A stretch of DNA of 64,000 bases from Castellaniella sp. Its GTDB lineage: Bacteria; Pseudomonadota; Gammaproteobacteria; Burkholderiales; Burkholderiaceae_B. The stretch covers positions 1 to 64,000 of the forward strand of contig NZ_SCQN01000042.1 in the NCBI RefSeq assembly GCF_004321985.1, written 5' to 3'. Positions within the stretch are counted from its first letter, which is position 1, and each line of letters starts with the position of its first letter. The notes under the pieces are model-generated. The model had not been told where the DNA came from. It was given only the letters and a program-made list of their open reading frames with translations, and searched no databases. Shown here piece after piece: positions 43,006 to 63,410 of the stretch. The translations under genes and the position numbers were made by a program.

Positions 43006-43012
43006 ATCGCTA

Positions 43013-43165: not shown

Positions 43166-43189
43166 ACGTCGGGCACCTGAAGGGCCATC

Positions 43190-43199
43190 ATGTATACAA
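43190..43199. promoter_or_regulatory. GntR operator 2 (ATGTATACAA)
   Basis: Exact reverse complement of operator 1, 177 bp away centre to centre (close to 17 helical turns), 15 bp before the SDR start codon. Spacing suits DNA looping by the same dimeric regulator. Confidence 0.72.
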
Positions 43200-43214
43200 A
43201 ATAGGCGTCAAACC

Positions 43215-43994: not shown

Positions 43995-44040
43995 GCCTCG
44001 CCGAGACCACATGCACCATCCAAGTTCACGAGGAGTCAAC

Positions 44041-45261: not shown

Positions 45262-45283
45262 GGTCCCTATCAGCCGTTGACCG

Positions 45284-45314
45284 GCGCCGCGCCTCCACCA
45301 GGGGGCTGCGGCGC
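45284..45314 (+). promoter_or_regulatory. Intra-operonic stem-loop after the second binding-protein gene
   Basis: Arms GCGCCGC (45284-45290) and GCGGCGC (45308-45314); the interior can extend the stem with GCC/GGC and a one-base bulge. Same position as in the first Liv cluster and in dctPQM, between receptor and permease. Confidence 0.5.
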
Positions 45315-45328
45315 TCTCGGAGCATGAC

Positions 45329-47963: not shown

Positions 47964-48675
47964 ACCGTTCCTGTCCGTGGAATCCATTTCCGCATCGTAC
48001 GGCAACATTGCCGCCTTGCATGAAGTCTCGTTGAGCGTCCCCCGCGGGGAAATCGTGGCCCTGCTGGGCGCCAACGGCGCGGGCAAGTCCACCACGCTGA
48101 ACGTGATCTCCGGACTGGTGCGCGCCACGCACGGCACGGTTCGCCTGGAAGGCAAGCCCATCCATCGCATGGGGACTGATCACATCGTCCAGCAAGGCAT
48201 CATCCAGGTCCCGGAAGGACGCGAGATCTTCCGCGACATGAGCGTACGTGAGAACCTGGAAATGGGTGCCTACACCCGCAAGGACCGCGCTGCCGTCGCG
48301 CGTGACCTGGACGCCATGTGTGACATCTTCCCGCGCCTGCGCGAACGCATCGCGCAGAAGGCCGCCACGCTGTCCGGCGGCGAGCAGCAGATGCTGGCCA
48401 CGGCCCGCGCCATGATGGCCAGGCCCCGGATGATCCTGATGGACGAGCCCTCCATGGGGCTGGCGCCACTGGTGGTCGAACAGATCTTCAACACCGTCCG
48501 TACGCTGAACCGGGAGCAGGGCATCACCATCCTGCTCGTCGAACAGAACGCGAAGCTGGCCCTGTCCGTGTCCAGCCACGCGTACATCCTGGAGAACGGC
48601 GAACTGGCGCTGCAGGGCCCGTCCGCCGATCTCATCAGCGACGAGGCCGTGCAGCGCGCCTATCTGGGTGCATGA
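47956..48675 (+). CDS. Liv-type ABC ATPase LivF (second cluster)
   Basis: 239 residues, canonical LivF size. Walker A GANGAGKSTT near residue 37, VPEGREIFRDMSVRENLEMG near 85, signature LSGGEQQMLATARAM, Walker B MILMDEPSMGLAP. Completes the second importer. Confidence 0.93.
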   Translation: MSEPFLSVESISASYGNIAALHEVSLSVPRGEIVALLGANGAGKSTTLNVISGLVRATHGTVRLEGKPIHRMGTDHIVQQGIIQVPEGREIFRDMSVRENLEMGAYTRKDRAAVARDLDAMCDIFPRLRERIAQKAATLSGGEQQMLATARAMMARPRMILMDEPSMGLAPLVVEQIFNTVRTLNREQGITILLVEQNAKLALSVSSHAYILENGELALQGPSADLISDEAVQRAYLGA

Positions 48676-48694
48676 ATTTGCAAGAGAGGATCGA

Positions 48695-49447
48695 ATGAAA
48701 TTGCTGGATCAAAAACTGGCGCTGGTCACAGGCGCCTCGGGTGGGCTCGGATCGGCCATCGCGCTGGGCTTCGCCCGCCAGGGCGCCCGCGTCATCGTTG
48801 CCGACCTGAACCGGCCGGGTGCTGAAGCCGTCGCCCAGGAAATCCGCGATCTTGGCGGCTCCGCCTGGGCCGAGGCCGTGGACGTCACGGACCGGTCCGC
48901 CGTCCGCTCCTGGGCCGACGACCTCCAAACCCGCATGGGCCCCATCGACATCCTGATCAACAACGCCGGGATATCGGGGCGCGCGCGCTTTGACGATCCC
49001 CAGTCGGCCGAGGTCTGGGACCGTATCATTTCAGTCAACCTGGAGGGCGTCTTCAACGTCACCCACGCCTTCGTCGAACAGCTCAAGGCGACGCACGGCA
49101 GCATCATCAGCCTGTCCTCCATCGTGGCTTTCGCCAGCGGCCCATCGACCGCCGCGTACATCGCCTCCAAGGGAGCGGTACGCTCGCTGACCCAGGCGCT
49201 GGCGCGCGACCTGGCCCCGCACGGGGTCCGCGTGAACGCCGTGGCGCCAGGCTTCATGCTGACCGACATGGTGAAACCCCAACTCACCACCCCAGGCGGA
49301 ACTGACTGGTTCATGAAGCGCGCACCCATGGGGCGTGGCGGCGAACCAGAGGAAATTGTGGGCCCCATCGTCTTCCTGGCTTCCGAGATGGCCAGCTATG
49401 TGACGGGCGTCGTGCTGCCGGTGGACGGCGGCTTTCTGTCAGCCTGA
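48695..49447 (+). CDS. Short-chain dehydrogenase/reductase (SDR 2)
   Basis: 250 residues. VTGASGGLGSAIALGFARQG near residue 12, NNAG in DILINNAGISG, Ser in LSSIVAFASG, and AYIASK. C-terminus VLPVDGGFLSA. Classical SDR. AGAGAGGA precedes ATG 48695. Shares the operon with two other SDRs of different sequence, so successive oxidation or reduction of different intermediates is plausible. Confidence 0.9.
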   Translation: MKLLDQKLALVTGASGGLGSAIALGFARQGARVIVADLNRPGAEAVAQEIRDLGGSAWAEAVDVTDRSAVRSWADDLQTRMGPIDILINNAGISGRARFDDPQSAEVWDRIISVNLEGVFNVTHAFVEQLKATHGSIISLSSIVAFASGPSTAAYIASKGAVRSLTQALARDLAPHGVRVNAVAPGFMLTDMVKPQLTTPGGTDWFMKRAPMGRGGEPEEIVGPIVFLASEMASYVTGVVLPVDGGFLSA

Positions 49448-49461
49448 GAAAGGAAATACTC

Positions 49462-50187
49462 ATGAATGCAGTGGCATTGGTCACCGGCGCCGCCGGCGGC
49501 ATGGGACAGGTCATCGTCCGGCGGCTTGCGCAGGATGGATTTTCCGTCGTGGCGGTGGACCGGGCCGAAGCCCCCCTGACCGAACTGGAGCGCCAATTGA
49601 AGCCGAAGGGACTGGACATCCGGACATGCGTCGCGGATCTGGCCCGGGAAGCGGACATCGTGGAGCTGATCGACGGGTTGCCCCAGTTGTCGGCGCTGGT
49701 CAACAGCGCCGGCCTCTTCGACGAGCGGGACTTCTTCGAACTGACGCAGGAAGACTTCCGCCGCATGTACGAGCTGAACCTGATCGCGGCCGCCACACTC
49801 ACGCAGCGTGCTGCCGCACGAATGAGCGCCGGCGCCAAGATCATCAACATCGCCTCACGCGCCTATCTGGGTGCACGCCACCACGCGCACTATGTGGCGT
49901 CCAAGGCCGCCCTGGTCGGTTACACGCGCGCCAGCGCCATGGAACTCGCGCCCAGGGGAATCCTGGTCAACGCCATCGCACCGGGCCTCATCGACACCCC
50001 GATGCTGCGTGCCCTCAGCCCCGAACGGCTTGCAGCACAACTTGCCCTGCAACCCACGGGCAAGGCCGGCACACCGGAGGACATCGCCAACGCGGTGTCC
50101 TTCCTGGCGTCACCCGGCATGTCCTTCATCACGGGACAGGTGCTGTTCGTGGACGGCGGCAAATCACTGGGCGGATCGGGAGCCTGA
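49462..50187 (+). CDS. Short-chain dehydrogenase/reductase (SDR 3)
   Basis: 241 residues. VTGAAGGMGQVIVRRLAQDG near residue 7; NSAG replaces NNAG; catalytic Ser in INIASRAYLG and YVASK. Ends VLFVDGGKSLGG. AAAGGA 11 nt before the start. Five bases separate it from the flavoprotein gene. Confidence 0.88.
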   Translation: MNAVALVTGAAGGMGQVIVRRLAQDGFSVVAVDRAEAPLTELERQLKPKGLDIRTCVADLAREADIVELIDGLPQLSALVNSAGLFDERDFFELTQEDFRRMYELNLIAAATLTQRAAARMSAGAKIINIASRAYLGARHHAHYVASKAALVGYTRASAMELAPRGILVNAIAPGLIDTPMLRALSPERLAAQLALQPTGKAGTPEDIANAVSFLASPGMSFITGQVLFVDGGKSLGGSGA

Positions 50188-50192
50188 TCACC

Positions 50193-51902
50193 ATGGAAAA
50201 CATCGAATGGAGCCAAACCGTCGACGTGCTGGTCGCGGGTTCGGGAGCGGGCGGGATGTCGGCCGCCCTGACGGCGCATTTTGAAGGGCAGGACGTTCTG
50301 CTGATCGAGAAGACCAGCCGGATTGGCGGTTCGACCGCCGTTTCGGGTGGGGCCATCTGGATTCCACTGAACCCCGGCGCGGCTGCAGCCGGCCACGGCG
50401 ACGATACCTACGAAAAGGTCTGGGAGTATCTACGGCAGATCGTGGGCAACGCCTCCCCGGATGACCTGAAGGAATCCTATCTGCGGAACGGCCCCGACAT
50501 GCTGGACTACATGCGGGCGCATCAGGTCCTGGACGTGGCGACCCGGGCGTATTCTCCGGACTACTACCCCGACCGCCCCGGCGCCGCACTCGGCGGGCGG
50601 GTGGTGGACCCGACCGCATTCGACGGCAAGCAGCTGGGCGGGCATTTCAAAGAGCTGCGCGACCCGCTGAAGGAATTCGTGGTGCTGGGCGGCATGATGG
50701 TGACCGTCACCGACGTCTACCACCTGCTCGCGGCCACGCGCTCCCTGAAATCCTTCTGGTATTCCGGCAAGCTGGTCCTGAACTTCTGGCTGGACCGCCT
50801 GCGCGGCTACCATCGAGGCACCCGACTGCTGCTGGGCAACGCGCTGGCTGGGCAGTTGTTCCACGCCGTCCTGAAGCACAAGGTTCCCTACCAGCTCGAC
50901 ACTGCGGCACGCCGCCTGCATCGCGACCAAGACGGACGAATCATCGGCATCACGGTGCAGCAGAATGGCACGCAGCGCCATATCCGGACACGCAAGGGCG
51001 TCGTCATCGCCACGGGGGGCTTTCCGTGGAACGCGCAGCTTCGCGAGGAATTCTTTCCCAAACCCACGGGCCCCTGGTCCATGTCGCCGGAGGACGACAG
51101 TGGCGATGGCATCCTGCTGATGCGAGACGCCGGCGCCGTCATGGGAACTGGTCATGTGGCACCCGCATCCTGGGCGCCCGTCTCCCTATGGACGAAGCCC
51201 GACGGCACCGTCACCCGCTACCCGCACCTGGTCTGGGAGCGCGCCAAGCCCGGCCTGATCGCCGTCAATCACAAGGGCGAGCGCTTCGTCAACGAGTCCA
51301 CGTCATATCACGAATTCGTGAAGGCCATGTACGCATCGGCAGACGGGCCGGAAATTCCGGCCTGGCTATTGTGCGACAGACAATTCATCGATACCTGGGG
51401 ACTCGGCCTGGCGCTGCCTGGCGGCCGGCCACGCCAGCACCTGATCCGGGACAAGTACTTGGTCGAGGCCCCCACGCTGGCCGCATTGGCGGGGAAGATC
51501 GGCGTGGATGCTCGGCGCCTGCAGGCCACCGTGACCCGCTACAACCAGTTCGCCGCCAAGGCCGAAGACCCGGATTTCGGGAAAGGCTCGACGGCCTACA
51601 ACCGGAACCTGGGCGATCCGTCCCACCAGCCAAACCCCTGCCTGCGCGCGATTGGCGATGGTCCCTACTATGCAGTACAAGTGGTGGCGGGCGACATCGG
51701 GACGTCCTGCGGCATCCACACCGATCCAGGCGCCCGTGCCTTGGATGCCGACGGACGGGCCATCCCCGGGCTTTTCGTCGCCGGCAACGACATGCAGTCG
51801 GTCTTCGGCGGCACCTACCCGGGGTCGGGCATCACCCTGGGCCCGGCGCTGACCTTCGGCTGGATGGCCGGACGCGCACTGGCCACGATGAACAACGAAT
51901 AA
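50193..51902 (+). CDS. FAD-dependent desaturase, 3-ketosteroid delta-1-dehydrogenase (KstD)-like
   Basis: 569 residues, KstD-like length. N-terminal FAD-binding motif VLVAGSGAGGMSAALTAHF near residue 12, then STAVSGGAIWIP. The C-terminal catalytic loop reads GGTYPGSGITLGPALTFGWM; its Tyr542 and the second Gly match the KstD Tyr and Gly that promote enolisation of the ring ketone. Members insert a double bond next to a ring ketone (steroids, 4-oxocyclohexanecarboxylate, fumarate-like substrates). Neighbouring SDRs could make the ketone. True substrate unknown. Confidence 0.85.
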   Translation: MENIEWSQTVDVLVAGSGAGGMSAALTAHFEGQDVLLIEKTSRIGGSTAVSGGAIWIPLNPGAAAAGHGDDTYEKVWEYLRQIVGNASPDDLKESYLRNGPDMLDYMRAHQVLDVATRAYSPDYYPDRPGAALGGRVVDPTAFDGKQLGGHFKELRDPLKEFVVLGGMMVTVTDVYHLLAATRSLKSFWYSGKLVLNFWLDRLRGYHRGTRLLLGNALAGQLFHAVLKHKVPYQLDTAARRLHRDQDGRIIGITVQQNGTQRHIRTRKGVVIATGGFPWNAQLREEFFPKPTGPWSMSPEDDSGDGILLMRDAGAVMGTGHVAPASWAPVSLWTKPDGTVTRYPHLVWERAKPGLIAVNHKGERFVNESTSYHEFVKAMYASADGPEIPAWLLCDRQFIDTWGLGLALPGGRPRQHLIRDKYLVEAPTLAALAGKIGVDARRLQATVTRYNQFAAKAEDPDFGKGSTAYNRNLGDPSHQPNPCLRAIGDGPYYAVQVVAGDIGTSCGIHTDPGARALDADGRAIPGLFVAGNDMQSVFGGTYPGSGITLGPALTFGWMAGRALATMNNE

Positions 51903-51917
51903 CCGAAAGGAAAACCA

Positions 51918-52523
51918 ATGAAGCTGTACTACTCCACCACATCCCCGTACGTTCGCAAATGCCTGATCGCAGCGCATGAACTCGGTCTCATCGACCAGAT
52001 CCAGATCGTGCCCGTCGTGACCATGCCCACCCAGCACAATGCGGAACTCATGGGACAGAACCCCCTTTGCAAGCTGCCGACGCTGGTCCTGGAAAACGGG
52101 TCGGTGCTCTACGACAGCCGCGTGATCAGCGAATACCTGAATACTCTCGCGGGCGGTTCCCTGATTCCCGAAGGAGACGCACGCTGGGACACACTGGTGC
52201 GCCAGTCGCTCGCCGACGGATTGCTGGATGCCGCGCTGCTGATGCGTTACGAATCGGTTCTGCGCCCCAAGGAATTCCAATGGGCCAGCTGGCAACAGAC
52301 CCAGGAGGACAAGGTTCGCAGCGCACTTCGCCAACTGGAATCGACCGCTGCGAGCTGGGTGAACCGCCTGGATCTGGGCACGATCGCGGCCGCAAGCGCC
52401 CTGAGCTACCTCGATCTGCGATTTGCAGAACTGGACTGGCGCGCCAGCGCACCGGTGCTCGAGTCATGGTTTGCCGCGTTCAGCGAACGTCCTTCCATGC
52501 GCCAGACCCAGTTCAAGGCCTGA
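51918..52523 (+). CDS. Glutathione S-transferase family protein
   Basis: 201 residues. Thioredoxin-like N-terminal domain with YYSTTSPYVRKCLIA (catalytic Ser) and GSVLYDSRVISEYLN for glutathione gamma-Glu binding, then a helical C-terminal domain. AAAGGAAA precedes ATG 51918. It ends the GntR-controlled operon. Could isomerise or detoxify a ring-fission or dehalogenation intermediate; it is distinct from the MaiA further on. Confidence 0.85.
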   Translation: MKLYYSTTSPYVRKCLIAAHELGLIDQIQIVPVVTMPTQHNAELMGQNPLCKLPTLVLENGSVLYDSRVISEYLNTLAGGSLIPEGDARWDTLVRQSLADGLLDAALLMRYESVLRPKEFQWASWQQTQEDKVRSALRQLESTAASWVNRLDLGTIAAASALSYLDLRFAELDWRASAPVLESWFAAFSERPSMRQTQFKA

Positions 52524-52539
52524 GCATGGCTGCGGGCGC

Positions 52540-53445
52540 TCAAGCCACCCACGCCTGCTGGCCAACGTGCTCATGCAGATAGGCGACAAACGCCTCGGCG
52601 GCCGGAGACAGGCTGGCATGCTGATGGCTGTAGACAAAGAACTGCCGGCGGATCTCCGGATCGTGCAATGGACGCATGCGCAACCCGTAAAGATTCACCA
52701 GCGTGCTCGCATAGGTCAGGCACATGGTCACGCCCAAGCCGGCGCTGACCATGCTGAGCGCGGTGCTCATGAACGCCACTTCGTGCCGGGGGCGCATCGC
52801 CATCATGGCTACAGTGCCATGCAGATCCATGACGAGCTGCTCGGTGAACTGCCCCTGCAGGGCAATCAGCGGATGACGCACCAGATCGGTCCAGGTGATC
52901 CGCTCTTCAGCCTCCAGTGGATGCCCGGCGGGGAAAACAGCCATGAACGGCAGGTCGAACAACGGGTCCGCATCCAGCTCGGTCAGACCCTCCCGGTAAG
53001 GTCCGATACTGATGTCCACCTCGCCCCGAAGCGCCTGGGCAATGGCGTCTTCGACGGCGCAGTCGACGAGCCGGATCCGGATATCGGGATGCGCCCGCTG
53101 AAAACCGGCAATCACATCCGGCATCAGCGTGCTGGCCATCAGTTGTGGCGCGGCGATGCGCACGACACCGCGCCGCAGCCGCTTGAGTTTGTCGATGTCT
53201 TCAAGCGCCCCATCCAGATCACGGAGAAGCCGCGTCGCGACCGAATGAAATTCACGCCCGGCCTCGGACAGATGGATTCTCCGCGTATTGCGATCCACCA
53301 GCCGCACCCCCACCTGGCTTTCCAGCTCCTTGATCAGGCCGCTGAGCGCCGACTGGGTGATGTGCAACGATTCGGCGGCGCGGGTAAAGCTCCCGGTCCT
53401 GGCGACAGCCGTAAAGGCGCGCAATTGGCGCAGCGTCACATCCAT
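52540..53445 (-). CDS. LysR-family regulator upstream of fahA
   Basis: 301 residues with standard HTH (LRQLRAFTAVARTGSFTRAA, then LHITQSALSGLIKELE) and substrate-binding domain. Divergent from fahA-maiA with a 107-bp gap, the classical LysR layout, so it probably controls those genes. The effector may be a homogentisate-pathway intermediate. Confidence 0.9.
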   Translation of the reverse strand: MDVTLRQLRAFTAVARTGSFTRAAESLHITQSALSGLIKELESQVGVRLVDRNTRRIHLSEAGREFHSVATRLLRDLDGALEDIDKLKRLRRGVVRIAAPQLMASTLMPDVIAGFQRAHPDIRIRLVDCAVEDAIAQALRGEVDISIGPYREGLTELDADPLFDLPFMAVFPAGHPLEAEERITWTDLVRHPLIALQGQFTEQLVMDLHGTVAMMAMRPRHEVAFMSTALSMVSAGLGVTMCLTYASTLVNLYGLRMRPLHDPEIRRQFFVYSHQHASLSPAAEAFVAYLHEHVGQQAWVA

Positions 53446-53552
53446 CTGTTGATCCTATGAATCGATGGAGAAAAACCGTTTGAATGATAGCTGGAAACTG
53501 CTTCTAATCGTCAATCTGTTCCATAAAACTTCAATCGTCCCCCGGATTCATC

Positions 53553-54572
53553 ATGAAACTCGCCACCCTCAAAACGACCGGCCGTGACGGCCAGCTTATC
53601 GTCGTCACCCGCGACCTGTCGCGCTACATCGCCGTGCCGCAGATCGCCGCGACGCTGCAGGCCGCACTGGACGACTGGTCAGACTGCGAGCCGCGACTGC
53701 GGGCCGTCTACGACCAACTGAACGCCGGACACGTTGCGGGCGCACAGCCCTTTGACGCCGCCGCCTGCCACTCGCCTCTGCCGCGTGCCTATCAGTGGGC
53801 GGACGGATCGGCCTATCTGAATCACGTGGAGCTGGTCCGCCGCGCCCGCAACAGCCAGGTCCCAGCTTCCTTTTTCACCGACCCGCTGATGTACCAAGGG
53901 GGGTCGGACTCCTTCATCGGACCGCGCGACCCCATCATCGCCGACAGCGAGGACTGGGGCATCGACATGGAGGCCGAAGTCACGGTGGTGACGGACGACG
54001 TCCCCATGGGGACCTCACCTGAGGACGCCATTGCAAGGATCCGCCTGCTGATGCTGGTCAACGACGTGTCATTGCGCGGTCTGATCCCCGGTGAACTCGC
54101 CAAGGGCTTCGGCTTCTTCCAGTCCAAGCCCGCCAGCGCATTCTCACCGGTCGCCGTGACCCCCGACGAGCTGGGCAACGCCTGGGCCGGCGGCAAGGTC
54201 CACCTGCCCATGCGCGTGGACCTGAACGGTGAGCCGTTCGGGCGCCCCGACGCGGGCCAGGACATGACCTTCCATTTCGGCCAACTCATCGCGCACGCCG
54301 CCCACACACGGGATTTGGAAGCCGGCAGCATCATCGGCTCGGGGACTATTTCCAACAAGCAGGGGGGCCTCAACGGTTCCAGCATCCGCAACGGCGGCGT
54401 GGGCTATTGCTGTATCGCCGAAGTCCGCATGTACGAAACTATCGAGACCGGCAAGCCGTCGACGCCCTTCATGCACTTCGGCGACCGGGTGCGCATCCAC
54501 ATGGAGGACGCCCAGGGACAGGATATTTTCGGCACAATCGACCAGGTGGTCACGCAGCGCACAGGAGCCTGA
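53553..54572 (+). CDS. fahA: Fumarylacetoacetate hydrolase family protein
   Basis: 339 residues. The FAH fold C-terminal domain has the metal-binding Glu/Asp in DMEAEVTVVTDDVPMG and DVSLRGLIPGELAKGFGFFQ, QSKPASAFSPVAV, and GSGTISNKQGG. N-terminal domain of about 80 residues matches bacterial FahA rather than the short catabolic FAH isomerases. It cleaves fumarylacetoacetate to fumarate and acetoacetate. maiA follows after 5 bp, supporting the role. Confidence 0.88.
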   Translation: MKLATLKTTGRDGQLIVVTRDLSRYIAVPQIAATLQAALDDWSDCEPRLRAVYDQLNAGHVAGAQPFDAAACHSPLPRAYQWADGSAYLNHVELVRRARNSQVPASFFTDPLMYQGGSDSFIGPRDPIIADSEDWGIDMEAEVTVVTDDVPMGTSPEDAIARIRLLMLVNDVSLRGLIPGELAKGFGFFQSKPASAFSPVAVTPDELGNAWAGGKVHLPMRVDLNGEPFGRPDAGQDMTFHFGQLIAHAAHTRDLEAGSIIGSGTISNKQGGLNGSSIRNGGVGYCCIAEVRMYETIETGKPSTPFMHFGDRVRIHMEDAQGQDIFGTIDQVVTQRTGA

Positions 54573-54577
54573 ATACC

Positions 54578-55222
54578 ATGTACCAGCTCTATTCGTACTT
54601 CCGCAGCTCGGCGGCCTACCGGGTGCGCATCGCGCTGGGCCTGAAAGGCCTGGACTTCGCACTGACCCCGGTGCACCTGCTCAGGCACGGCGGAGAGCAA
54701 AACCAGGCCGAATACCGCCGCATCAACCCCGAAGGCCTGGTTCCGGCGCTGGTCCAGGGCGGGACGGTCCTCACCCAATCCCTGGCGATCATCGAGTATC
54801 TGGACGAGGTCCACGGCCCGCGCTCGCTCCTGCCCGACAATCCGCTGGCGCGCGCCCGTGTCCGCGCGCTCGCCCTGCAGGTCGCCTGCGATATCCATCC
54901 GCTGAACAACCTGCGGGTCCTGCGCTGGCTGGCCCACGAGATGCAGGCTGAACAGCCCGTCCGCGATACCTGGTACCGGCACTGGGTCACATTGGGATTC
55001 GATGCACTGGAAGCCAGTCTGCAGTCTCCGGACACCGGCCTGTGCTGCCACGGCGATACGCCCGGTCTGGCCGACTGCTGCCTGATCCCGCAGGTCTACA
55101 ACGCCCGACGTTATGAAATGGACCTGTCGGCATGGCCAACGATCGCCCGCATCGCTGAGCATTGCAACACACTGCCCGCGTTCCATGCGGCCAGACCGGA
55201 GGCACAGCCAGACGCGGAATGA
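54578..55222 (+). CDS. maiA: Maleylacetoacetate isomerase (zeta-class GST)
   Basis: 214 residues. YSYFRSSAAYRVRIALGLKG near residue 5 is the zeta-class active-site motif (Ser-Ser and following Arg), with LTQSLAIIEYLDE near 70. It isomerises maleylacetoacetate to fumarylacetoacetate using glutathione. Operon with fahA. Confidence 0.93.
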   Translation: MYQLYSYFRSSAAYRVRIALGLKGLDFALTPVHLLRHGGEQNQAEYRRINPEGLVPALVQGGTVLTQSLAIIEYLDEVHGPRSLLPDNPLARARVRALALQVACDIHPLNNLRVLRWLAHEMQAEQPVRDTWYRHWVTLGFDALEASLQSPDTGLCCHGDTPGLADCCLIPQVYNARRYEMDLSAWPTIARIAEHCNTLPAFHAARPEAQPDAE

Positions 55223-55276: not shown

Positions 55277-55945
55277 ATGGCACCCTCCCGTCTTGCACCG
55301 AGCAACCCCGCTTCGCGCGATACCGACCGTTCGCAGGCCACCATCCTGCGCGCGGCGCGCGATGAATTCTCGGATCATGGGTTCGCCGGCGGACGGGTCG
55401 ACCGCATCGCGGATCGTGCGGGGGTCAACAAACGCCTCATCTACTACTACTTTGGCAATAAGAACGAGCTGTTCCTCTCGGTGCTGGAAAACGCATACGC
55501 AGACATCCGCAACGCGGAAAAAGGGCTGCACCTGGACCAGCTGCAACCCACCGACGCGCTGCGCACGCTGATCCGCTTCACCTGGCACTACGTCCTCGAA
55601 CATCCCGAATTCCCGTCCCTGCTGGGTAGCGAAAACCTGATGCGCGCCAGCCACCTGAAGAAATCCAAAAAGATCCGGGACATGCACTCCCCCTTCGTGA
55701 AGATGCTGGACACACTGTTGACCCGCGGGCACGAACAGGGGATTTTTCGTGCAGGCATCGACCCCGTGCAGCTCTACATCTCGATCGCCGCGCTAGGATT
55801 TTTCTACCTCGGCAATAACGCGACGCTATCCGTCATCTTCGGCAAAGACCTGAAGGCGACCAAAGAGCTGGACGAACGCCTTGCCCATATGACGGAACTC
55901 GTCGTGGGCTACGCCACGAACGTCACCACGCCGCTCACGATCTGA
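55277..55945 (+). CDS. TetR-family transcriptional regulator
   Basis: 222 residues. HTH at about 20-65: TILRAARDEFSDHGFAGGRV followed by IADRAGVNKRLIYYYFGNK. The rest is the all-helical ligand domain of the RutR-like group. It sits on the same strand as, and just ahead of, the ABC-enzyme operon, whose promoter is overlapped by a palindrome. It is the obvious candidate repressor. Confidence 0.9.
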   Translation: MAPSRLAPSNPASRDTDRSQATILRAARDEFSDHGFAGGRVDRIADRAGVNKRLIYYYFGNKNELFLSVLENAYADIRNAEKGLHLDQLQPTDALRTLIRFTWHYVLEHPEFPSLLGSENLMRASHLKKSKKIRDMHSPFVKMLDTLLTRGHEQGIFRAGIDPVQLYISIAALGFFYLGNNATLSVIFGKDLKATKELDERLAHMTELVVGYATNVTTPLTI

Positions 55946-55985: not shown

Positions 55986-56015
55986 TTGACAGCCCAAGAC
56001 TGTGATCCGCATAAT
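55986..56015 (+). promoter_or_regulatory. Sigma-70 promoter of the ABC-enolase-DUF993 operon
   Basis: TTGACA (55986-55991), 18-nt spacer, CATAAT (56010-56015). Six and five of six consensus bases. Transcription should begin near 56022, giving a short leader before ATG 56058. Confidence 0.75.
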
Positions 56016-56033
56016 TCACCAGACGGTGAATTA
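56012..56033. promoter_or_regulatory. TetR-type operator overlapping the promoter
   Basis: Perfect 9-bp arms TAATTCACC (56012-56020) and GGTGAATTA (56025-56033) with a 4-nt centre. It covers the -10 box and start site, the usual position for repression by a TetR dimer. Confidence 0.8.
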
Positions 56034-56057: not shown

Positions 56058-56825
56058 ATGCTGCGTAAGTTGATGATGTCGCCGGCCATTCGGCCGATCT
56101 TGCTGGTCGTCTTCCTGGTGGTGCTATGGGATCTGACGATCCGCATCTTCCACATCCAGCCATATCTCATCCCGCCCCCCGCCAAGGTCTTGACGCAACT
56201 GATCGAGCAGTGGCCAATGCTGCTGACACAGAGCTACTTCACCACTGAAGCGACGGTCTGGGGGTTCCTGCTGTCCATCGCCGTCGGCGTGCCCATCGCC
56301 ATGGTGATCGCCTACTCACGGCTGATCGAATCCTACGTCTATCCGCTTCTGGTGTTCTCGCAGAGTGTCCCTAAGGTCGCCATCGCGCCGCTCTTCGTCG
56401 TGTGGTTCGGCTTCGGCATCCTGCCCAAGATCATCACTGCGTTCCTGCTGGGTTTCTTCCCCATCGTGGTCGCCACGGTCATGGGCTTCAAGTCCGTTGA
56501 ATCGGACATGCTGGACCTGGCGCGTTCCATGGGTGCGAGCCGCCTGCAGACCTTCATCAAGATCAGCCTGCCAGCCGCGCTCCCTGCGCTTTTCAGCGGG
56601 CTCAAGGTCTCGGTCACGCTTGCCGTGGTGGGCGCAGTGGTCGGCGAATTCGTCGGATCCAATTCCGGGATCGGCTATGTGCTGCAGGTCGCCAATGGCA
56701 ACTTCGACCTGCCACTGATGTTCGCCGGGCTGGTTCTGCTGTCAGTCATCGGAGTGCTGCTGTTTGCAATCGTCGATCTCGTCGAACAGTTCATGATCCC
56801 GTGGCACGTATCTGTGCGCAAATAG
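56058..56825 (+). CDS. ABC transporter permease, SsuC/TauC type
   Basis: 255 residues with about six membrane helices. The EAA loop is SVESDMLDLARSMGASRLQTF near residue 152, IKISLPAALPALFSGLKV following, the signature of nitrate/sulfonate/taurine-type importers (BPD_transp_1). Starts the operon. Ligand class unclear. Confidence 0.88.
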   Translation: MLRKLMMSPAIRPILLVVFLVVLWDLTIRIFHIQPYLIPPPAKVLTQLIEQWPMLLTQSYFTTEATVWGFLLSIAVGVPIAMVIAYSRLIESYVYPLLVFSQSVPKVAIAPLFVVWFGFGILPKIITAFLLGFFPIVVATVMGFKSVESDMLDLARSMGASRLQTFIKISLPAALPALFSGLKVSVTLAVVGAVVGEFVGSNSGIGYVLQVANGNFDLPLMFAGLVLLSVIGVLLFAIVDLVEQFMIPWHVSVRK

Positions 56826-56888: not shown

Positions 56889-57905
56889 ATGATCAACAAG
56901 CTCATCAAAGCAGGTCTGGGTCTGGCGCTGTCAGCCGTGATGCTGGGTACCGCCGCCGTTCCGGCACAGGCTCAGCAAAAGCCGAAGGACAAAGTTTCCC
57001 TGATGCTGAACTGGTATCTGTACAGCGAACACGCCCCATTCTTCCTGGGAAAGAAGCTGGGCTACTACGCTGATGAAGGCATAGACCTGGACATCCAGGA
57101 GGGCCGCGGCTCTGCCGTGACGGCCCAGGCCGTTGCAGCACAGTCCGTCCAGTTCGGCTACATCGACGTAACCACCATGATCAAGGCCGCCGCCCGGGGT
57201 GCACCATTGATTTCCACCGGTGTGCTGTTCCAGATCAGCCCGATGTCGGTCATGGCCTTCGAGGACAAGAACATTCGCACGCCCAAGGAGATCATCGGCA
57301 AGACCGTCGCCGTGACGCCTGGGGACGCGCTGTCGCAGGTCTGGCCGATCTTCCTGAAGGTCAACCACATCGATCCCACCCAGATCAAGACCGTTTCGGG
57401 CGATGCTCAGACCAAGCTGAACGCGGTCATGACCGGGCGAGCCGACATGCTGCTGGGTTACGTCATGGACCAGGCCATCAAGTTGCAAGACGCAACCGGC
57501 AGAAAGGTCTATCCAATTCGCTTTGCGGACTATGGCGTCAACCAGATCAGCTCGGGAATCGTGGTCAACAAGGAATGGCTTGCCAAGAACCAGGATCTGA
57601 CGCGGCGCTTCATGCGGGCCTCGACACGAGCCGTGGAAGCAGCCGTCAAGGATCCGCAGGCGGCAGTGGACGCCATGCTGGAAGCCAAGCCCAAGGCGGG
57701 GGTGGCCGCCACGCTGCTCATCGGTCTGCAGCGCAGCATCGCCCTCTACCACACCAAGGAAACCAAAGGCCAGCCGCCTTTCCGCGTCACCATGGGCAAC
57801 GTGGACAAGTCTCTGAACCTGCTGGTCGAATATGGCGCCATCGACAAGGACCACCGTGGCAAACCCGGCGACTACGTGACGCTGGACTATCTCCCGAAGA
57901 ACTAA
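56889..57905 (+). CDS. ABC transporter substrate-binding protein, NMT1/SsuA-like
   Basis: 338 residues. Signal peptide ends VPAQA. DKVSLMLNWYLYSEHAPFFL opens the NMT1/ThiY fold, then KKLGYYADEGIDLDIQEGRG. Relatives bind pyrimidines, sulfonates, taurine or aromatic acids. GGGAG lies before ATG 56889. The order permease-receptor-ATPase is slightly unusual. Confidence 0.87.
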   Translation: MINKLIKAGLGLALSAVMLGTAAVPAQAQQKPKDKVSLMLNWYLYSEHAPFFLGKKLGYYADEGIDLDIQEGRGSAVTAQAVAAQSVQFGYIDVTTMIKAAARGAPLISTGVLFQISPMSVMAFEDKNIRTPKEIIGKTVAVTPGDALSQVWPIFLKVNHIDPTQIKTVSGDAQTKLNAVMTGRADMLLGYVMDQAIKLQDATGRKVYPIRFADYGVNQISSGIVVNKEWLAKNQDLTRRFMRASTRAVEAAVKDPQAAVDAMLEAKPKAGVAATLLIGLQRSIALYHTKETKGQPPFRVTMGNVDKSLNLLVEYGAIDKDHRGKPGDYVTLDYLPKN

Positions 57906-57922: not shown

Positions 57923-58702
57923 ATGTCTGACGATATCCTCATCCAGGCCCACGGCGTCACCAAGGTCTATCAGACCCGCGACGGTGCGGTTGAATCTCTC
58001 AAGCCGCTGGATTTCGCGATCCACAAGGGAGAATTCGTCTCGGTGGTCGGCCCATCAGGATGCGGCAAGAGCACCTTGCTCAAGATGGTGGCCGGCCTGC
58101 TGCCCGTGACGGCGGGGACACTCTCGCTCGGCGGCCAACCCATCACGGCGCCACGAAAGGATGTGGGTATCGTTTTTCAGAGCGCCGTACTGCTGGCATG
58201 GCGCGACGTACTGAGCAATATCCTGCTGCAGGCGGAAATGCGGCACATGCCCAAGGGATCTGCACGCGCCAGAGCGCTAGAACTCATCAAAATGGCGGGG
58301 CTGGCGGGCTTCGAGAAGAAATATCCCTGGCAGCTCTCGGGCGGCATGCAGCAGCGCGCATCCATCTGCCGCGCCTTGCTGCACGATCCCCCATTGCTTC
58401 TGATGGACGAGCCCTTCGGGGCGCTAGATGCCATGACGCGCGAAAACATGAACCTGGAGCTTCAAAGGATCTGGGCTGAATCGCGCAAAACGGTTCTCCT
58501 GATCACCCACAGCATCCCTGAGGCCATTTTCCTTTCGGACAGAGTCATCGTCATGAGCGAACGGCCTGGATCCATCGCAGCCATCTACGACATCCAACTG
58601 CCCCGGATGCGTTCACTGGACGTGATGGGTACCCCCGAATTCGCGTCATACGCCAAGCAGATCCGCAAGCACTTCTACTCCGAAGGCATCCTGGATCAAT
58701 AG
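57923..58702 (+). CDS. ABC transporter ATP-binding protein, SsuB/TauB type
   Basis: 259 residues. Walker A GPSGCGKSTL near residue 46, Q-loop VFQSAVLLAWRDVLSN, signature LSGGMQQRASICRAL, Walker B LLLMDEPFGALDAMTR, switch His ITHSIPEA. Completes the importer. Confidence 0.92.
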   Translation: MSDDILIQAHGVTKVYQTRDGAVESLKPLDFAIHKGEFVSVVGPSGCGKSTLLKMVAGLLPVTAGTLSLGGQPITAPRKDVGIVFQSAVLLAWRDVLSNILLQAEMRHMPKGSARARALELIKMAGLAGFEKKYPWQLSGGMQQRASICRALLHDPPLLLMDEPFGALDAMTRENMNLELQRIWAESRKTVLLITHSIPEAIFLSDRVIVMSERPGSIAAIYDIQLPRMRSLDVMGTPEFASYAKQIRKHFYSEGILDQ

Positions 58703-58729: not shown

Positions 58730-60154
58730 ATGTCCGCCCCCCTCTTTCGCATCGACGACATCCGCCTGGCCGAACGCGACGTGGCGCTGCGCCTGCCCTT
58801 CCGGTTTGGGAGCGCGACGGTCCGCAGTTGCCCGCAGGCCTTCGCACAGGTGCGGATCCGCTTCGGAGACGGCGCAACGGCGACCGGCCACGCAGCTGAA
58901 ATGATGATTCCGAAGTGGTTCGACAAACGCCCCGCGCTGTCGCAGGACGACAACGTCCGCCAACTGCGGGATGCGCTGGCGATGGCACGAGACGCCTACC
59001 GATCGGACTCGGCACCCAGTACTGCCTGGGGACACTTTGCAAGGTGGTACACGGATTTGCAGTCCGCTGCCGCCAAGCGCGATCTGCCCGCGTTGGTGGC
59101 ATCCTACGGCCCGGCCCTGCTGGATCGCGCCATCCTGGACGCCTTGTGCCATCACCTGAAGCTAAGCTTCGGCCAGGCCATGACAGCCAATATCCCTGGC
59201 ATGAACCCGGCCGACAGCGGCTTGGTCAGCGATCTTCGCGATTTCGACTTCAATGCCTTCCTGGCCGCGCACGACGCAAGCAGCATGGACCGGAAAATTG
59301 CCGCCAGGCACACGGTCGGCCTGGCGGATGCGTTGACAGGCGCTCCGGCGGGTCTTCCCGAAGACGGCCTGCCCGTCACGCTGGCGCAGGCCGTCGCCCG
59401 CTACGGCCATGACTACTTCAAGATCAAATTGTCGGGCGACACGGCGGCCGACCTGCGGCGCCTGGCGGACATCACTGCCGTCATCAGTCAAAACATGCGA
59501 CTGGTCTCGCTGGACGGCAATGAACAGTTCGAAGATCAGGCCCACCTGGCGCAATTCACGGAAGCGCTGGAACGGCATCCGGATCTTGGCCCGCTGCGCG
59601 CGCACCTGGCCTACATCGAGCAGCCCCTTCCGCGGTCCAGCACACTGACCAGCGATCTCTCTGCACGGAAGCAGCCGTACGCCCTTCTGATCGACGAATC
59701 GGACGCCACGCTGGACTCGTTCCTCGAGGCCAGACCGCTCGGATACACCGGCGTCTCCAGCAAATCCTGCAAGGGCTTCTACAAGTCCGTGATCAACGCA
59801 GCACGCTGCGCGCACTGGCCGGTCAGCGACGGACGCCCCTACTTTCTGTCTGCGGAAGACCTCACCATGCAGGCAGGAATCGGGGTCCAGCAGGATCTGG
59901 CGCTGGTGGGCTGGCTCGGACTCGAGCATGTCGAGCGCAACGGCCACCACTACGTCAACGGGCTGGCCGGTACCCCGGACACAGAACAAAACCAGTTTCT
60001 GTCGCAATTTCCGGCTCTGTACGAACGCAGCAACGGCGCCGTACGCCTGCATATCGCACAAGGCCGGATCGATCTGTCGGATCTGGACTGCCCAGGCTTT
60101 GCCACGGGTACGGACGAACCCATCACCTGGAGCACTCTGCGCTCCACACACTGA
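58730..60154 (+). CDS. Enolase-superfamily protein (mandelate racemase/muconate lactonizing-like)
   Basis: 474 residues, about 100 longer than typical members. The barrel carries a K-x-K base pair in FKIKLSGD, metal ligands Asp in SLDGNEQF, Glu in YIEQPLPR and Asp/Glu in LLIDESD, and a late Lys in GVSSKSCKGF. These match the MLE subgroup, which abstracts a proton alpha to a carboxylate to dehydrate, epimerise or cycloisomerise acids. The exact reaction is not predictable. It is the first enzyme of a four-gene catabolic block. Confidence 0.78.
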   Translation: MSAPLFRIDDIRLAERDVALRLPFRFGSATVRSCPQAFAQVRIRFGDGATATGHAAEMMIPKWFDKRPALSQDDNVRQLRDALAMARDAYRSDSAPSTAWGHFARWYTDLQSAAAKRDLPALVASYGPALLDRAILDALCHHLKLSFGQAMTANIPGMNPADSGLVSDLRDFDFNAFLAAHDASSMDRKIAARHTVGLADALTGAPAGLPEDGLPVTLAQAVARYGHDYFKIKLSGDTAADLRRLADITAVISQNMRLVSLDGNEQFEDQAHLAQFTEALERHPDLGPLRAHLAYIEQPLPRSSTLTSDLSARKQPYALLIDESDATLDSFLEARPLGYTGVSSKSCKGFYKSVINAARCAHWPVSDGRPYFLSAEDLTMQAGIGVQQDLALVGWLGLEHVERNGHHYVNGLAGTPDTEQNQFLSQFPALYERSNGAVRLHIAQGRIDLSDLDCPGFATGTDEPITWSTLRSTH

Positions 60155-60163
60155 AGGAATGTC

Positions 60164-61333
60164 ATGAAGACACAACGTCTTGGAATCATCATGCATGGCG
60201 TCACCGGCCGCATGGGAACCAATCAGCACCTGATCCGCTCGATCGCAGCGATTCGCCGCCAGGGCGGTGTCGCGCTGCCAAACGGCGACAAGGTCATGCC
60301 CGATCCTATCCTGGTGGGGCGCAATCTGGACAAGGTGCGAGCTCTCGCGGCGGCGAACGGGGTCGAACGCTGCACCGACGATCTGGCCGGCGCACTGGCC
60401 AATGCCGACGACACCGTCTTCTTCGACGCAGGCACCACGCTGATGCGGCCCCAGCTTCTCACACAGGCCATCGCTGCCGGGAAGCACATTTACTGCGAAA
60501 AACCTATCGCAACGGGCCTGGAAGAAGCCATGAGGGTCTGCGAACTTGCGCGCAGCGCCGGCATCAAGCACGGCGTCGTCCAGGACAAGCTTTTCCTGCC
60601 GGGACTGCGCAAGCTCGACATGCTTCGCCGCTCGGGCTTCTTCGGACGCATGCTCTCGGTGCGCATCGAATTCGGCTACTGGGTCTTCGAAGGCGATCTC
60701 CAGCCGACCCAGCGCCCTTCCTGGAACTCCCGCAAGGAAGACGGTGGCGGCATGATCCTGGACATGTTCTGCCACTGGCGTTACGTGCTGGACAACCTGT
60801 TCGGCACGGTCCAGTCCGTTTCGTGCCTGGGGACCACGCACATTCCCCAGCGCTGGGACGAGCAGGGCACCCCCTTCAAGGCGACCGCCGACGACGCGGC
60901 CTATGCGACATTCCAGCTCAAGGGCCACAACGGCGAACCGGTAATTGCGCAGGTCAACTGCTCCTGGGCCACTCGTGTGCGGCGCGACGATCTGGTCACC
61001 TTCCAGGTCGACGGCACCCATGGTTCCGCCGTCGCGGGCCTGACCGGATGCGTGGCACAGTCCCGCGTCAACACGCCCCGCCCCGTCTGGAACCCGGACG
61101 AAAAGCAGAAGATGCCATTCCTGGAGCAATGGCAAGAAGTACCGGACACGGAGACCTACGACAACGGCTTCAAGATTCAGTGGGAGCACTTCATTCGCCA
61201 CGTCGTGGCCGACACCCCGTTCCGCTGGACATTGGAAGAAGGCGCAAAAGGCGTGCAGCTCGTCGAGAAGGCCCTGCAAAGCTGGGAGGAGCGGCGCTGG
61301 ATCGACGTACCCGCCCTCTTCCCGCAACCCTGA
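60164..61333 (+). CDS. Gfo/Idh/MocA family oxidoreductase
   Basis: 389 residues. Rossmann N-terminus GIIMHGVTGRMGTNQHLIRS, catalytic Lys in IYCEKPIATGLEEAM near residue 112, and a C-terminal beta-sheet domain. Enzymes of this family oxidise or reduce sugars, inositols and related polyols with NAD(P). Nine bases follow the preceding gene. Confidence 0.87.
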   Translation: MKTQRLGIIMHGVTGRMGTNQHLIRSIAAIRRQGGVALPNGDKVMPDPILVGRNLDKVRALAAANGVERCTDDLAGALANADDTVFFDAGTTLMRPQLLTQAIAAGKHIYCEKPIATGLEEAMRVCELARSAGIKHGVVQDKLFLPGLRKLDMLRRSGFFGRMLSVRIEFGYWVFEGDLQPTQRPSWNSRKEDGGGMILDMFCHWRYVLDNLFGTVQSVSCLGTTHIPQRWDEQGTPFKATADDAAYATFQLKGHNGEPVIAQVNCSWATRVRRDDLVTFQVDGTHGSAVAGLTGCVAQSRVNTPRPVWNPDEKQKMPFLEQWQEVPDTETYDNGFKIQWEHFIRHVVADTPFRWTLEEGAKGVQLVEKALQSWEERRWIDVPALFPQP

Positions 61334-61344
61334 GGAAGGCTCTC

Positions 61345-62535
61345 ATGACCACATCCCTGCAACTGCCCGGTTCGACGGGCAAAATCGAACACTACACGCT
61401 GCAAGGCGACCCCATCCGCAGGCCGCCCGGCAACGCCGCATTCAATCGGGTGGCCTACTCGGCAGCGCACGTGGTGGCTGATCCGCTGGCCGCCGGAAAT
61501 CCCTGGACCGAGTGTCACATCGACTGGGACACCACGATCGCGTACCGACGACATCTATGGTCGCTGGGGCTGGGAGTGGCCGAAGCAATGGACACCGCGC
61601 AACGCGGCATGGGGCTGGACTGGGCAACTTCGCTGGAACTCATCCGGCGATCACTGGATGCCGCGCGGGACATCCCCGGCGCCCGCATCGCCTCAGGATG
61701 CGGGACGGACCATTTGGATCCCTCACAAGCGCGCAGCGTCGACGACGTGATCCACGCCTACGAAACCCAGGCGGATGCCATCGAGGCCCTGAACGGGCGC
61801 CTGATTCTCATGGCGAGCCGGGCGCTGGTCCGGGTGGCGCGCAGCCCGGACGACTATGTTCGGGTCTATGACCGGATCCTGAGTCAGGTCAAGGAACCCG
61901 TCATTCTCCACTGGCTGGGCGACATGTTCGACCCTCAGCTGAAGAATTACTGGGGCGACGAAGACCTCTCCAAGGCCACCGACACGGTCCTGGCTGTCAT
62001 CGCAAACCACGCCGGGAAGGTGGACGGCATCAAGATCTCGCTGCTGGACAAGACGCGCGAAATCGATCTGCGCCGCCGGCTTCCGGCACATGTCCGCATG
62101 TATACCGGCGATGATTTCAACTACGCGGAACTCATCGCAGGAGACGGCGAGGGCGATCTGCCGAACCATCGGTACAGCGACGCGCTGCTCGGAATCTTCG
62201 ACGCGATTGCACCGGCCGCCAGCGCGGCCCTGGCGGCACTCGCCGCCGGCGACATCCAGCAATTCAAGAAGATCCTCGCACCTACCGTCCCGCTGTCGCG
62301 TCATATCTTCGCCGCTCCAACCCGCTTCTACAAAACCGGGGTGGTCTGCATGGCTTGGCTCAACGGCCATCAGAATCACTTCTGCATGGTGGGCGGCCAA
62401 CAAAGCGCGCGTTCCACGCTGCACATGGCGGAACTGTTCCGCCTCGCCGATCGGGCAGGAGTCCTGGAGAGCCCCGAGCTGGCCACGAGGCGCATGCGCC
62501 AGTGGCTGGAGATCCACGGAATTCCTCAGGACTGA
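61345..62535 (+). CDS. DUF993 family protein
   Basis: 396 residues matching PF06187 by pattern: HIDWDTTIAYRRHLWSLGLG, then ASGCGTDHLDP, VILHWLGDMFDPQLKNYWG, and VDGIKISLLD with a central Lys. The fold is expected to be a DapA-like TIM barrel, and the Lys in KISLLD could form a Schiff base as in class I aldolases. No activity is known to me. It sits between an oxidoreductase and a TIM-barrel isomerase, the usual neighbours of DUF993. Confidence 0.8.
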   Translation: MTTSLQLPGSTGKIEHYTLQGDPIRRPPGNAAFNRVAYSAAHVVADPLAAGNPWTECHIDWDTTIAYRRHLWSLGLGVAEAMDTAQRGMGLDWATSLELIRRSLDAARDIPGARIASGCGTDHLDPSQARSVDDVIHAYETQADAIEALNGRLILMASRALVRVARSPDDYVRVYDRILSQVKEPVILHWLGDMFDPQLKNYWGDEDLSKATDTVLAVIANHAGKVDGIKISLLDKTREIDLRRRLPAHVRMYTGDDFNYAELIAGDGEGDLPNHRYSDALLGIFDAIAPAASAALAALAAGDIQQFKKILAPTVPLSRHIFAAPTRFYKTGVVCMAWLNGHQNHFCMVGGQQSARSTLHMAELFRLADRAGVLESPELATRRMRQWLEIHGIPQD

Positions 62536-62546
62536 AGGGCCCAGCC

Positions 62547-63410
62547 ATGCGCGACCTATCCGCAAATCACGATCTCATGTCGCTCAACACGGCGACAGTA
62601 CGCAAGCAGTGGCGCCTGGATCAGATCATCGACGAGTGTGCCAGGCGCAACATACGGGCCATCTCACCGTGGCGCGATCAGGTCGCGGCCGTCGGCCTTG
62701 ACGTCGTCGCCCGGCGGCTGCGCGAGGCGGGGATCCGACTTTCAGGCTACTGCCGAGGCGGCTTCTTCCCGGCGGCCGACGCCTCCGGCCTGGCTGCGGC
62801 GCTCCAGGACAACCGGGTAGCCATCGACGAAGCCAAGACCCTGGGAGCCCCGTGCGTAGTGCTCGTCGTAGGTTCCCTGCCAGGCGCCCTGCAGGGCCGG
62901 CCGGCATACACGGATCTGAACCGCGCCCGGCACGAAGTGCATGACGGCATCGCCGCAACTCTGGAATACGCACGAAGCGTCCAGATGCCCCTGGCTATCG
63001 AGCCCCTGCACCCCATGCAGGCTGCGGAGCGGGCCTGCATCAACACGCTGGAGCAGGCCCTGGATTTATGCGATGAGCTGGATCCGGCACAAAGCGGAAT
63101 GCTGGGAGTCGCCGTCGACATCTATCACGTCTGGTGGGACCCAAAACTCTACGCCCAAATCCGGCGGGCTGGCAAAAAACGCCTGCTTGCCTACCACGTC
63201 TGCGACTGGCTCACTCCAACTGCGGACCTGCTCAACGACCGTGGGATGATGGGGGACGGCGTCGTCGAACTCAAGCCCATCCGCAACCAGATGGAAGAGT
63301 CCGGCTACGCGGGCTACTGCGAGGTGGAGATCTTCTCGGAGCACTGGTGGGGTCTGCCCGGAGGCGCGGTGCTCGACACCTGTGTGGAACGGCACAAGAC
63401 CGTGGTGTGA
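62547..63410 (+). CDS. Sugar phosphate isomerase/epimerase family (xylose-isomerase-like TIM barrel)
   Basis: 287 residues. Metal ligands of the AP-endonuclease-2 fold: Glu in LAIEPLHPM, Asp/His in VAVDIYHVWWDP, His in AYHVCDW, Glu in CEVEIFSEHWW. Such proteins isomerise or epimerise sugars, keto acids or inosose. Last gene of the operon. Confidence 0.85.
   Translation: MRDLSANHDLMSLNTATVRKQWRLDQIIDECARRNIRAISPWRDQVAAVGLDVVARRLREAGIRLSGYCRGGFFPAADASGLAAALQDNRVAIDEAKTLGAPCVVLVVGSLPGALQGRPAYTDLNRARHEVHDGIAATLEYARSVQMPLAIEPLHPMQAAERACINTLEQALDLCDELDPAQSGMLGVAVDIYHVWWDPKLYAQIRRAGKKRLLAYHVCDWLTPTADLLNDRGMMGDGVVELKPIRNQMEESGYAGYCEVEIFSEHWWGLPGGAVLDTCVERHKTVV

Follow-up and report, generated by a model that had tools for sequence, protein, structure and literature searches.

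Sugar-acid pathways of the glucarate and threonate type end in glycerate, and in the breakdown of levoglucosan and in other keto-glycoside pathways a 3-keto sugar is formed, followed by elimination or hydration. Dihydrodipicolinate synthase (DHDPS) has a catalytic tyrosine (Tyr133 in Escherichia coli DapA), and type I 3-dehydroquinate dehydratase works with a His/Lys dyad. Here we describe an operon around a DUF993 gene in a stretch of 64,000 nucleotides from Castellaniella sp. (RefSeq assembly GCF_004321985.1, contig NZ_SCQN01000042.1, positions 1 to 64,000), which is referred to below as the window. The operon is real, conserved and regulated, and its parts come from known superfamilies. Its logic of importer, dehydrogenase and lyase is familiar, and no explained pathway for it was found in the sources searched. 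To judge from its genes and the modelled enzymes, it is probably a unit dedicated to the catabolism of a hydroxylated carboxylic acid and repressed by TetR, the acid being a sugar acid or a cyclitol or hydroaromatic acid.

Four enzyme genes lie in tandem on the forward strand, separated by 9, 11 and 11 bp, downstream of the genes for a TetR-family repressor and an NMT1-type importer. ENO (58730..60154) encodes a divergent enolase-superfamily enzyme of 474 aa with an active site like that of muconate lactonising enzyme (MLE; K-x-K, D/E/D and Lys). GFO (60164..61333) encodes a Gfo/Idh/MocA NAD(P) dehydrogenase, DUF993 (61345..62535) a DHDPS-fold enzyme with a candidate Schiff-base Lys230 and His189, and TIM (62547..63410) a xylose-isomerase-like TIM barrel with a Glu/Asp/His/Glu metal set. 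The last three have close solved relatives, namely 3oqb ('Oxidoreductase') for GFO, 4dnh (SMc04132) for DUF993, and 3ju2 (SMc04130) and 3qc0 for TIM. The open reading frame (ORF) positions agree with a first-pass annotation of the window as to the four genes, their coordinates and gaps of 9-11 bp. The enzyme families given there were also right, all four Pfam scores being above cut-off, and the active-site residues it named turned out to be invariant in the aligned homologues of each enzyme. Chance ORFs were rejected on the basis of the Pfam scores and the synteny. Cotranscription of the operon genes is supported by the conserved gene order.

In many relatives a homologue of the repressor gene (55277..55945, forward strand; TetR_N and TetR_C_29) likewise comes first in the operon. 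The nearest NCBIfam model of the window repressor is RutR, with 67 bits against a cut-off of 368. In the intergenic stretch between tetR and the permease gene a sigma-70-like promoter, TTGACA-18-CATAAT, runs from 55986 to 56015 on the forward strand (11 of 12 matches; shuffles gave a mean of 0.1). The TetR operator, a perfect palindrome AATTCACC-AGAC-GGTGAATT (56013..56032), overlaps its -10 element, and is the sole site with at most 2 mismatches in the 3.41-Mb genome. Downstream, all on the forward strand, follow a taurine/sulfonate-type permease of an ATP-binding cassette (ABC) importer (56058..56825, BPD_transp_1), an NMT1-type periplasmic binding protein (56889..57905; PF09084, 153 bits) and the importer ATPase (57923..58702), whose start codon was chosen by eye, the listed ORF starting further upstream.

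Operator-like sites were surveyed in 93 loci with TetR, GFO and DUF993, counting mismatches out of 16 positions and at most 450 bp from the TetR match. Such a site was present in 58 of the 93 loci at up to 4 mismatches, in 33 at up to 3 and in 28 at up to 2; these 28 loci are Burkholderiales, as far as titles and kinship tell. The Bradyrhizobium loci mostly carry a different recurrent sequence, four mismatches off the window operator, and many other alphaproteobacterial loci among the 93 had no operator-like site, so that the operator is not universal. It was also found upstream of TctC-type importer genes (loci L017, L020, L030, L061 and others), and differing importers therefore serve the same kind of regulator. 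A genome-wide scan of 12 genomes revealed sites in 10, and a reversed control pattern matched in one of the 12 (genome G017). Genomes G051 and G080 each have a second site like the TetR operator, upstream of a TctC binding-protein gene and on a contig other than that of DUF993 (L235, L236).

The congener G007 shows the operator at two places. Its operon (L234) runs TetR-permease-binding protein-ATPase-ENO-GFO-TIM, without DUF993 between GFO and TIM, and the contig ends within TIM. The only DUF993 gene detected in G007 lies on a separate contig (L237), where an exact copy of the operator (9627-9646) stands shortly before the gene start. This gene and its operator are divergent to an operon of TRAP, CoA-transferase, enoyl-CoA-hydratase, Gfo, acyl-CoA dehydrogenase and SDR genes. 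These two operators are the only sites with at most 1 mismatch in the G007 genome. In this assembly, which is 92% complete and in 340 contigs, DUF993 is therefore still under the operator although it lies apart from the operon, and its intergenic region is shared with the CoA genes. The TetR operator that had been predicted is a palindrome over a promoter, conserved in relatives. The view of one regulated catabolic unit is supported.

DUF993 scored 620 bits with its Pfam family, above the cut-off, and gave no Pfam DHDPS match. The best Foldseek hit of its predicted structure (mean predicted local distance difference test score, pLDDT, 88) was 4dnh, titled hypothetical protein SMc04132 of Sinorhizobium meliloti 1021. 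DHDPS-family structures followed at ranks 2-50 (E 7e-10 to 1.3e-8, target TM score 0.63-0.83, probability 1.00), so that the model has the DHDPS-type (beta/alpha)8 barrel. When DUF993 was aligned by profile with eight proteins of the DHDPS family from its own genome (E 5.6e-4), K230 fell on the Schiff-base Lys that is invariant in all eight; because the profile probability was only 29.7%, the register also depends on the fold match. K230 sits in model strand 226-232 and is, by alignment and model, the candidate for the Schiff-base Lys at the end of strand 6. It lies in the motif IKIS and is invariant in 46 of 46 aligned homologues and then in 100 of 100 dereplicated sequences. The earlier suggestion of a candidate Schiff-base Lys in KISLLD is supported by both the fold match and the alignment. 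In the same 100 sequences, which cover every kept cluster type, K230, H189, D83, R87, R159, D256, D257 and K330 are all invariant. That the active site does not vary although the clusters differ so much suggests a single reaction at a metabolic crossroads. One DUF993 reaction on one kind of intermediate would be the simplest reading of these sequences, and DUF993 looks like a lysine-based lyase common to many different nutrient-breakdown clusters.

That DUF993 has no assigned activity, as the first-pass annotation had it, is in line with our searches. There was no NCBIfam match at E 0.001, the family is still a DUF in Pfam, and the open-licence PMC literature gave no function for DUF993, PF06187 or its InterPro number, nor for the structure codes and S. 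meliloti locus tags that were searched. A table on PhaR-regulated gene expression contains SMc04132 and SMc04133, with values of -1.69 and -3.65, respectively (PMC12542648); the passage concerned says nothing on the substrate of either.

ENO is the weakest family call of the four, with 32 bits for Pfam MR_MLE_C against a cut-off of 29.4. PF13378 gave no match in the whole-genome profile scan, yet it was detected by hmmscan. A single-sequence search matched no PDB chain. A profile of 34 homologues reached MLE-type PDB structures (best E 2.8e-6), and the AlphaFold2 model (mean pLDDT 93) gave MLE and racemase folds among the best 50 Foldseek hits (E 4e-16 to 5e-13). K231-x-K233, D262, E297 and D322 are invariant in the 34 sequences and provide the K-x-K on strand 2 and the D/E/D ligands of the MLE subgroup. 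For the strand-6 Lys, K345 and K348 are invariant and follow model strand 341-344, as placed without superposition on a known structure. Among characterised enolase equivalogs (MenC, dipeptide epimerase, MLE) none fitted, the best NCBIfam score being 22.9 bits against a cut-off of 130.55; ENO is far below both NCBIfam cut-offs listed. GFO matched GFO_IDH_MocA (38 bits) and two C-terminal domain models (72 and 45 bits), all above the Pfam cut-off. It has the Rossmann domain, EKP motif, D-x3-H motif and C-terminal domain of its family, and E112-K113-P114, D200 and H204 are invariant in 27 sequences. TIM belongs to the AP_endonuc_2 fold family (118 bits, above the Pfam cut-off), with E152, D191, H217 and E259 invariant in 31 sequences as the Glu/Asp/His/Glu set. 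Its nearest chains are named by their depositors as uncharacterised (3ju2), sugar isomerase (3qc0) and xylose isomerase (7vpf).

A DUF993 gene was present in 15 of the 150 near relatives surveyed and in 42 of the 397 genomes sampled from the phylum (the own genome is counted in both), and in 147 plasmid records. From the genome contigs, 79 loci of at least 5 kb were picked by similarity to the window DUF993 (an 80th, L090, was too short). In 31 of them TetR, the three importer genes, ENO, GFO, DUF993 and TIM all lay within 9 kb of DUF993; 30 of these had the order of the window, some with an extra TctC gene, and L081 had another order. In the phylum sample, the full set was found in 15 of the 42 DUF993 genomes, own included. 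The synteny was seen in Burkholderiales, Bradyrhizobium and relatives, Microvirga and, with TetR behind TIM, Chelatococcus.

Neighbourhoods of up to 7 kb from DUF993 were counted in the 42 genomes, with controls of one 15-kb stretch per genome, taken from all of the 41 other DUF993 genomes except G322 and G342 (39 stretches). Since ORF calling by codon-position GC had placed some ORFs on the wrong strand, tblastn with annotated seeds was used to assign the labels anew. The seeds were picked after the clusters had been seen, and the label for ABC ATPases is unspecific, occurring in 9 of 39 controls. A dehydrogenase with the label GFO, GfoE or SDR was near DUF993 in 39 of 42 genomes (0/39 controls), TIM in 24 (0/39) and ENO in 15 (0/39). 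GFO itself was found in 23 of 42 and the NMT1 binding protein in 16. In place of GFO there may be an SDR, a different Gfo or, at three loci, a protein resembling shikimate dehydrogenase. Glycerate kinase (6/42 vs 0/39 controls), CoA-activating enzymes (14/42 vs 3/39) and GMC oxidoreductases (7/42; 15/42 vs 1/39 when aldehyde dehydrogenases are included) also occurred. The same modules were found in 21 annotated plasmid loci, hand-picked from listings. The four enzymes thus do not form a fixed pathway. Because ENO and TIM are often absent and GFO is replaceable, DUF993 plus a dehydrogenase is the recurring core.

A quick tree was made of 100 dereplicated DUF993 proteins, of which 32 of 97 inner branches are drawn open. 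Ten rows (L162, L184, L109, L181, L211, L157, L152, L151, L149 and L178; no reachable start, or a fragment) and the loci below 5 kb had been dropped. The cluster types required 44 changes on this tree, with a minimum of 7 and a shuffled mean of 65.1; cluster types are therefore clustered on the tree, yet swapped often. The nearest relatives of the window DUF993 include both an ENO-type (L016) and a CoA-type locus (L167).

Several other clusters were noted. The CoA-type plasmid clusters L108, L110, L111 and L112 contain CoA-transferase, enoyl-CoA hydratase, acyl-CoA dehydrogenase, SDR and aldo-keto reductase genes, with ETF genes in 3 of 4, a GMC oxidoreductase in 3 of 4 and glycerate kinase in 2 of 4, and form a second, larger uncharacterised pathway. 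On the nicotine plasmid pAO1 of Paenarthrobacter nicotinovorans (L106, locus 1-11382) a sugar ABC importer, GMC, aldehyde dehydrogenase, Gfo, DUF993 and glycerate kinase are found together; the aldehyde dehydrogenase alone among these carries a pathway note (D-xylose), and none of the papers listed by a search of the open-licence literature was judged to treat this cluster. A second DHDPS-family gene stands beside DUF993 clusters in L081, L082, L087, L088, L089, L092, L158, L041 and L046, with an extended SDR in several; the second copy of L088 had no NCBIfam match at E 1e-8. The DUF993 genes of L109 and L157 (S. meliloti R11 pSymA; sampled genome G315) appear to be broken.

The importer bears on the nature of the substrate. 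The first-pass annotation considered a sulfonate/pyrimidine-type importer beside sugar-like enzymes odd, but this mismatch mostly dissolves, as relatives swap importers mainly among organic-acid families: DUF993 is paired with TctABC, TRAP or anion:H+ MFS-type transporters, the TctC types being under the same operator. Acid-type importers were near DUF993 in 18 of 42 genomes (4/39 controls) and sugar-type importers in 11 (3/39). Importer classes were compared in 100 loci, leaving out 24 with neither or both classes (Fisher test, uncorrected for kinship). GMC/ALDH genes were present in 10 of 18 loci with CUT1/CUT2 sugar importers against 3 of 58 with NMT1, TctABC, TRAP or MFS (p 9e-6), and ENO in 1 of 18 against 32 of 58, the NMT1 type being classed as acid importer by assumption. 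Without the NMT1 loci the figures were 10/18 vs 2/40 for the oxidases and 1/18 vs 15/40 for ENO. Oxidase genes that go with sugar-type and seldom with acid-type importers are expected if an acid is the common intermediate, and the gene content fits a carboxylic acid that the cell may either take up directly or produce from a sugar or polyol. In some Burkholderiales clusters there is a protein whose best model is tartronate-semialdehyde reductase (156 bits, cut-off 340.75) and which is close to L-threonate dehydrogenase. Together with the glycerate kinase of other clusters, this gene suggests a C3 hydroxyacid as a possible product. The earlier idea of a sugar-acid or cyclic-polyol-acid substrate is supported as a fair guess.

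For the substrate, the order of the steps and the bond that is broken, we infer the following scheme. The NMT1-type importer would take up the hydroxylated carboxylic acid, and ENO would abstract the proton alpha to the carboxylate, leading to epimerisation or beta-elimination of water. GFO would oxidise a hydroxyl to a ketone, ENO and GFO together yielding a hydroxyketone, and TIM would isomerise or epimerise. The Lys230 of DUF993 might then form a Schiff base with the ketone, with His189 as acid/base, for retro-aldol cleavage of a beta-hydroxyketone or for dehydration. In related clusters the fragments could leave as glycerate, through the tartronate-semialdehyde-reductase-like enzyme and glycerate kinase, and as a CoA-activated acid. 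Several findings weigh against this scheme. In DUF993, His189 occupies the place of the catalytic Tyr, and T84 corresponds to the first Thr of the TT motif in GTTGE, with A85 replacing the second, for which reasons its reaction may differ. The window operon itself is without glycerate kinase and CoA genes, and enoyl-CoA hydratase is in weak excess near DUF993 (10/42 vs 5/39 controls). The assumption made in classing the NMT1 importers counts here too, as do the phylogenetically independent pairs (n=6, a number too small for a test), in which the oxidase link is not significant (median p 0.25 for the oxidases and 0.5 for ENO), although none of the six ran in the opposite direction. Ordinary DHDPS was rejected as an identity for DUF993, the catalytic Tyr and the TT motif being lost; because His189 replaces the Tyr, DUF993 is filed as sharing the DHDPS/N-acetylneuraminate lyase (NAL) fold, not as DHDPS or NAL.

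Since the His/Lys pair recalls that of type I 3-dehydroquinate dehydratase, dehydration may by analogy be a real rival to retro-aldol cleavage. A hydroaromatic or cyclitol-acid route, with DUF993 as a dehydratase of this kind or as a ring opener, is rather unlikely. His189 in the place of the DHDPS Tyr would suit it, and a shikimate-dehydrogenase-like gene is close by in three loci without GFO (L096:9122-9946, L042:15877-16752 and L054:2737-3509, the last by tblastn only and seemingly frame-broken), adjoining DUF993 in two; but these are three loci only, and shikimate-dehydrogenase-like folds act on sugars as well (7cok, 5-ketofructose reductase). The L096 gene is annotated as 'ThiF family adenylyltransferase', and its best Pfam and NCBIfam scores are shikimate-dehydrogenase-like. 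Weak similarity of ENO to o-succinylbenzoate synthase points the same way, as do a CoA-type-cluster acyl-CoA dehydrogenase whose second-best NCBIfam model is cyclohexane-1-carbonyl-CoA dehydrogenase (below cut-off) and the best NCBIfam model of GFO, inositol 2-dehydrogenase (far below cut-off). However, the NCBIfam matches of TIM include no dehydroshikimate dehydratase model, and the recurrent glycerate kinase suits a linear C3 product better.

It is improbable that the substrate is a glycoside or anhydrosugar acid which GFO oxidises to a 3-keto sugar and TIM eliminates or hydrates, with DUF993 handling the released keto sugar. GFO and the xylose-isomerase-like TIM do recur as a pair, some clusters have CUT1 sugar importers and further Gfo genes, and GFO weakly matches levoglucosan dehydrogenase (50.8 bits, cut-off 650), but 18 of the 42 genomes have no TIM near DUF993, and window-type clusters are dominated by acid-type importers and the carboxylate-type enolase. 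A sulfonated or nitrogen-containing substrate, as a literal reading of the importer family (taurine, sulfonate, pyrimidine) would suggest, is very improbable. The permease and ATPase score best with SaoP/SaoA- and Tau-type models, the binding protein with SsuA and TetR with RutR, yet all these scores are far below cut-off. A few plasmid loci carry genes for nitrogen compounds several kb off (cytidine deaminase in L098, ureidoglycolate lyase in L097, amidases in L099 and L108), but these do not adjoin DUF993 or its partners. A desulfonating gene is annotated in none of the 21 plasmid loci, and relatives use TctABC, TRAP or MFS instead. A sulfonate/pyrimidine pathway was rejected as leading idea. 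The earlier interpretation of the unit holds in part: the regulated unit and a Lys at the Schiff-base position are supported, the fixed pathway and the importer oddity are not. The order dehydration, oxidation, isomerisation and aldol cleavage is not supported as it was stated, and DUF993 could act by dehydration in place of cleavage.

DUF993 has a solved structure (4dnh) and no function in the sources searched, despite its wide occurrence. We tentatively consider it possible that DUF993 is a single-function His/Lys Schiff-base lyase family, apart from the assigned enzymes of the DHDPS superfamily. It might then be a hub for peripheral routes of the enolase, CoA and GMC-oxidase type to widespread, unrecognised cyclic or branched polyhydroxy acids in many soil bacteria. 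Given the operator, the importer and the four enzymes, a ligand screen can identify the substrate directly.

Upstream of the operon (36667-55222 of the window), an aromatic-acid catabolic region on the same strand stops just short of tetR. It contains branched-chain-type ABC importer parts, homogentisate 1,2-dioxygenase, two SDRs, a fumarylacetoacetate-hydrolase-family protein and two GST-family proteins, and a LysR gene (52540-53445) is on the opposite strand.

Compared with known systems, DUF993 resembles the DHDPS/NAL superfamily (class I aldolases, KDG aldolases) in its TIM-barrel fold and in the Lys at the Schiff-base position, but it is 11-16% identical among the matches listed, has His for Tyr and Ala for Thr, and is about 100 residues longer. 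ENO is like the MLE subgroup (MLE, o-succinylbenzoate synthase, dipeptide epimerases) in its K-x-K, D/E/D ligands, further Lys and fold; however, it has 474 aa where the PDB chains compared have 345-389 aa, and carries the extra invariant motifs RHT (193-195) and ERNGHH (402-407). GFO shares the EKP and D-x3-H residues and the domain architecture of inositol and sugar dehydrogenases (IolG, levoglucosan dehydrogenase), but scores 59 bits against a cut-off of 355 for IolG, and its nearest structure, 3oqb, is named merely 'Oxidoreductase'. TIM has the metal ligand set of the IolI/IolO/fructoselysine-epimerase-like xylose-isomerase TIM barrels, with 26 bits against cut-offs of 300 and 305. At the level of the pathway, some DUF993 clusters are like the glucarate- and threonate-type routes in their adjoining tartronate-semialdehyde-reductase-like and glycerate-kinase genes, whereas those routes differ from the DUF993 clusters in the families of their aldolase, dehydratase and isomerase.

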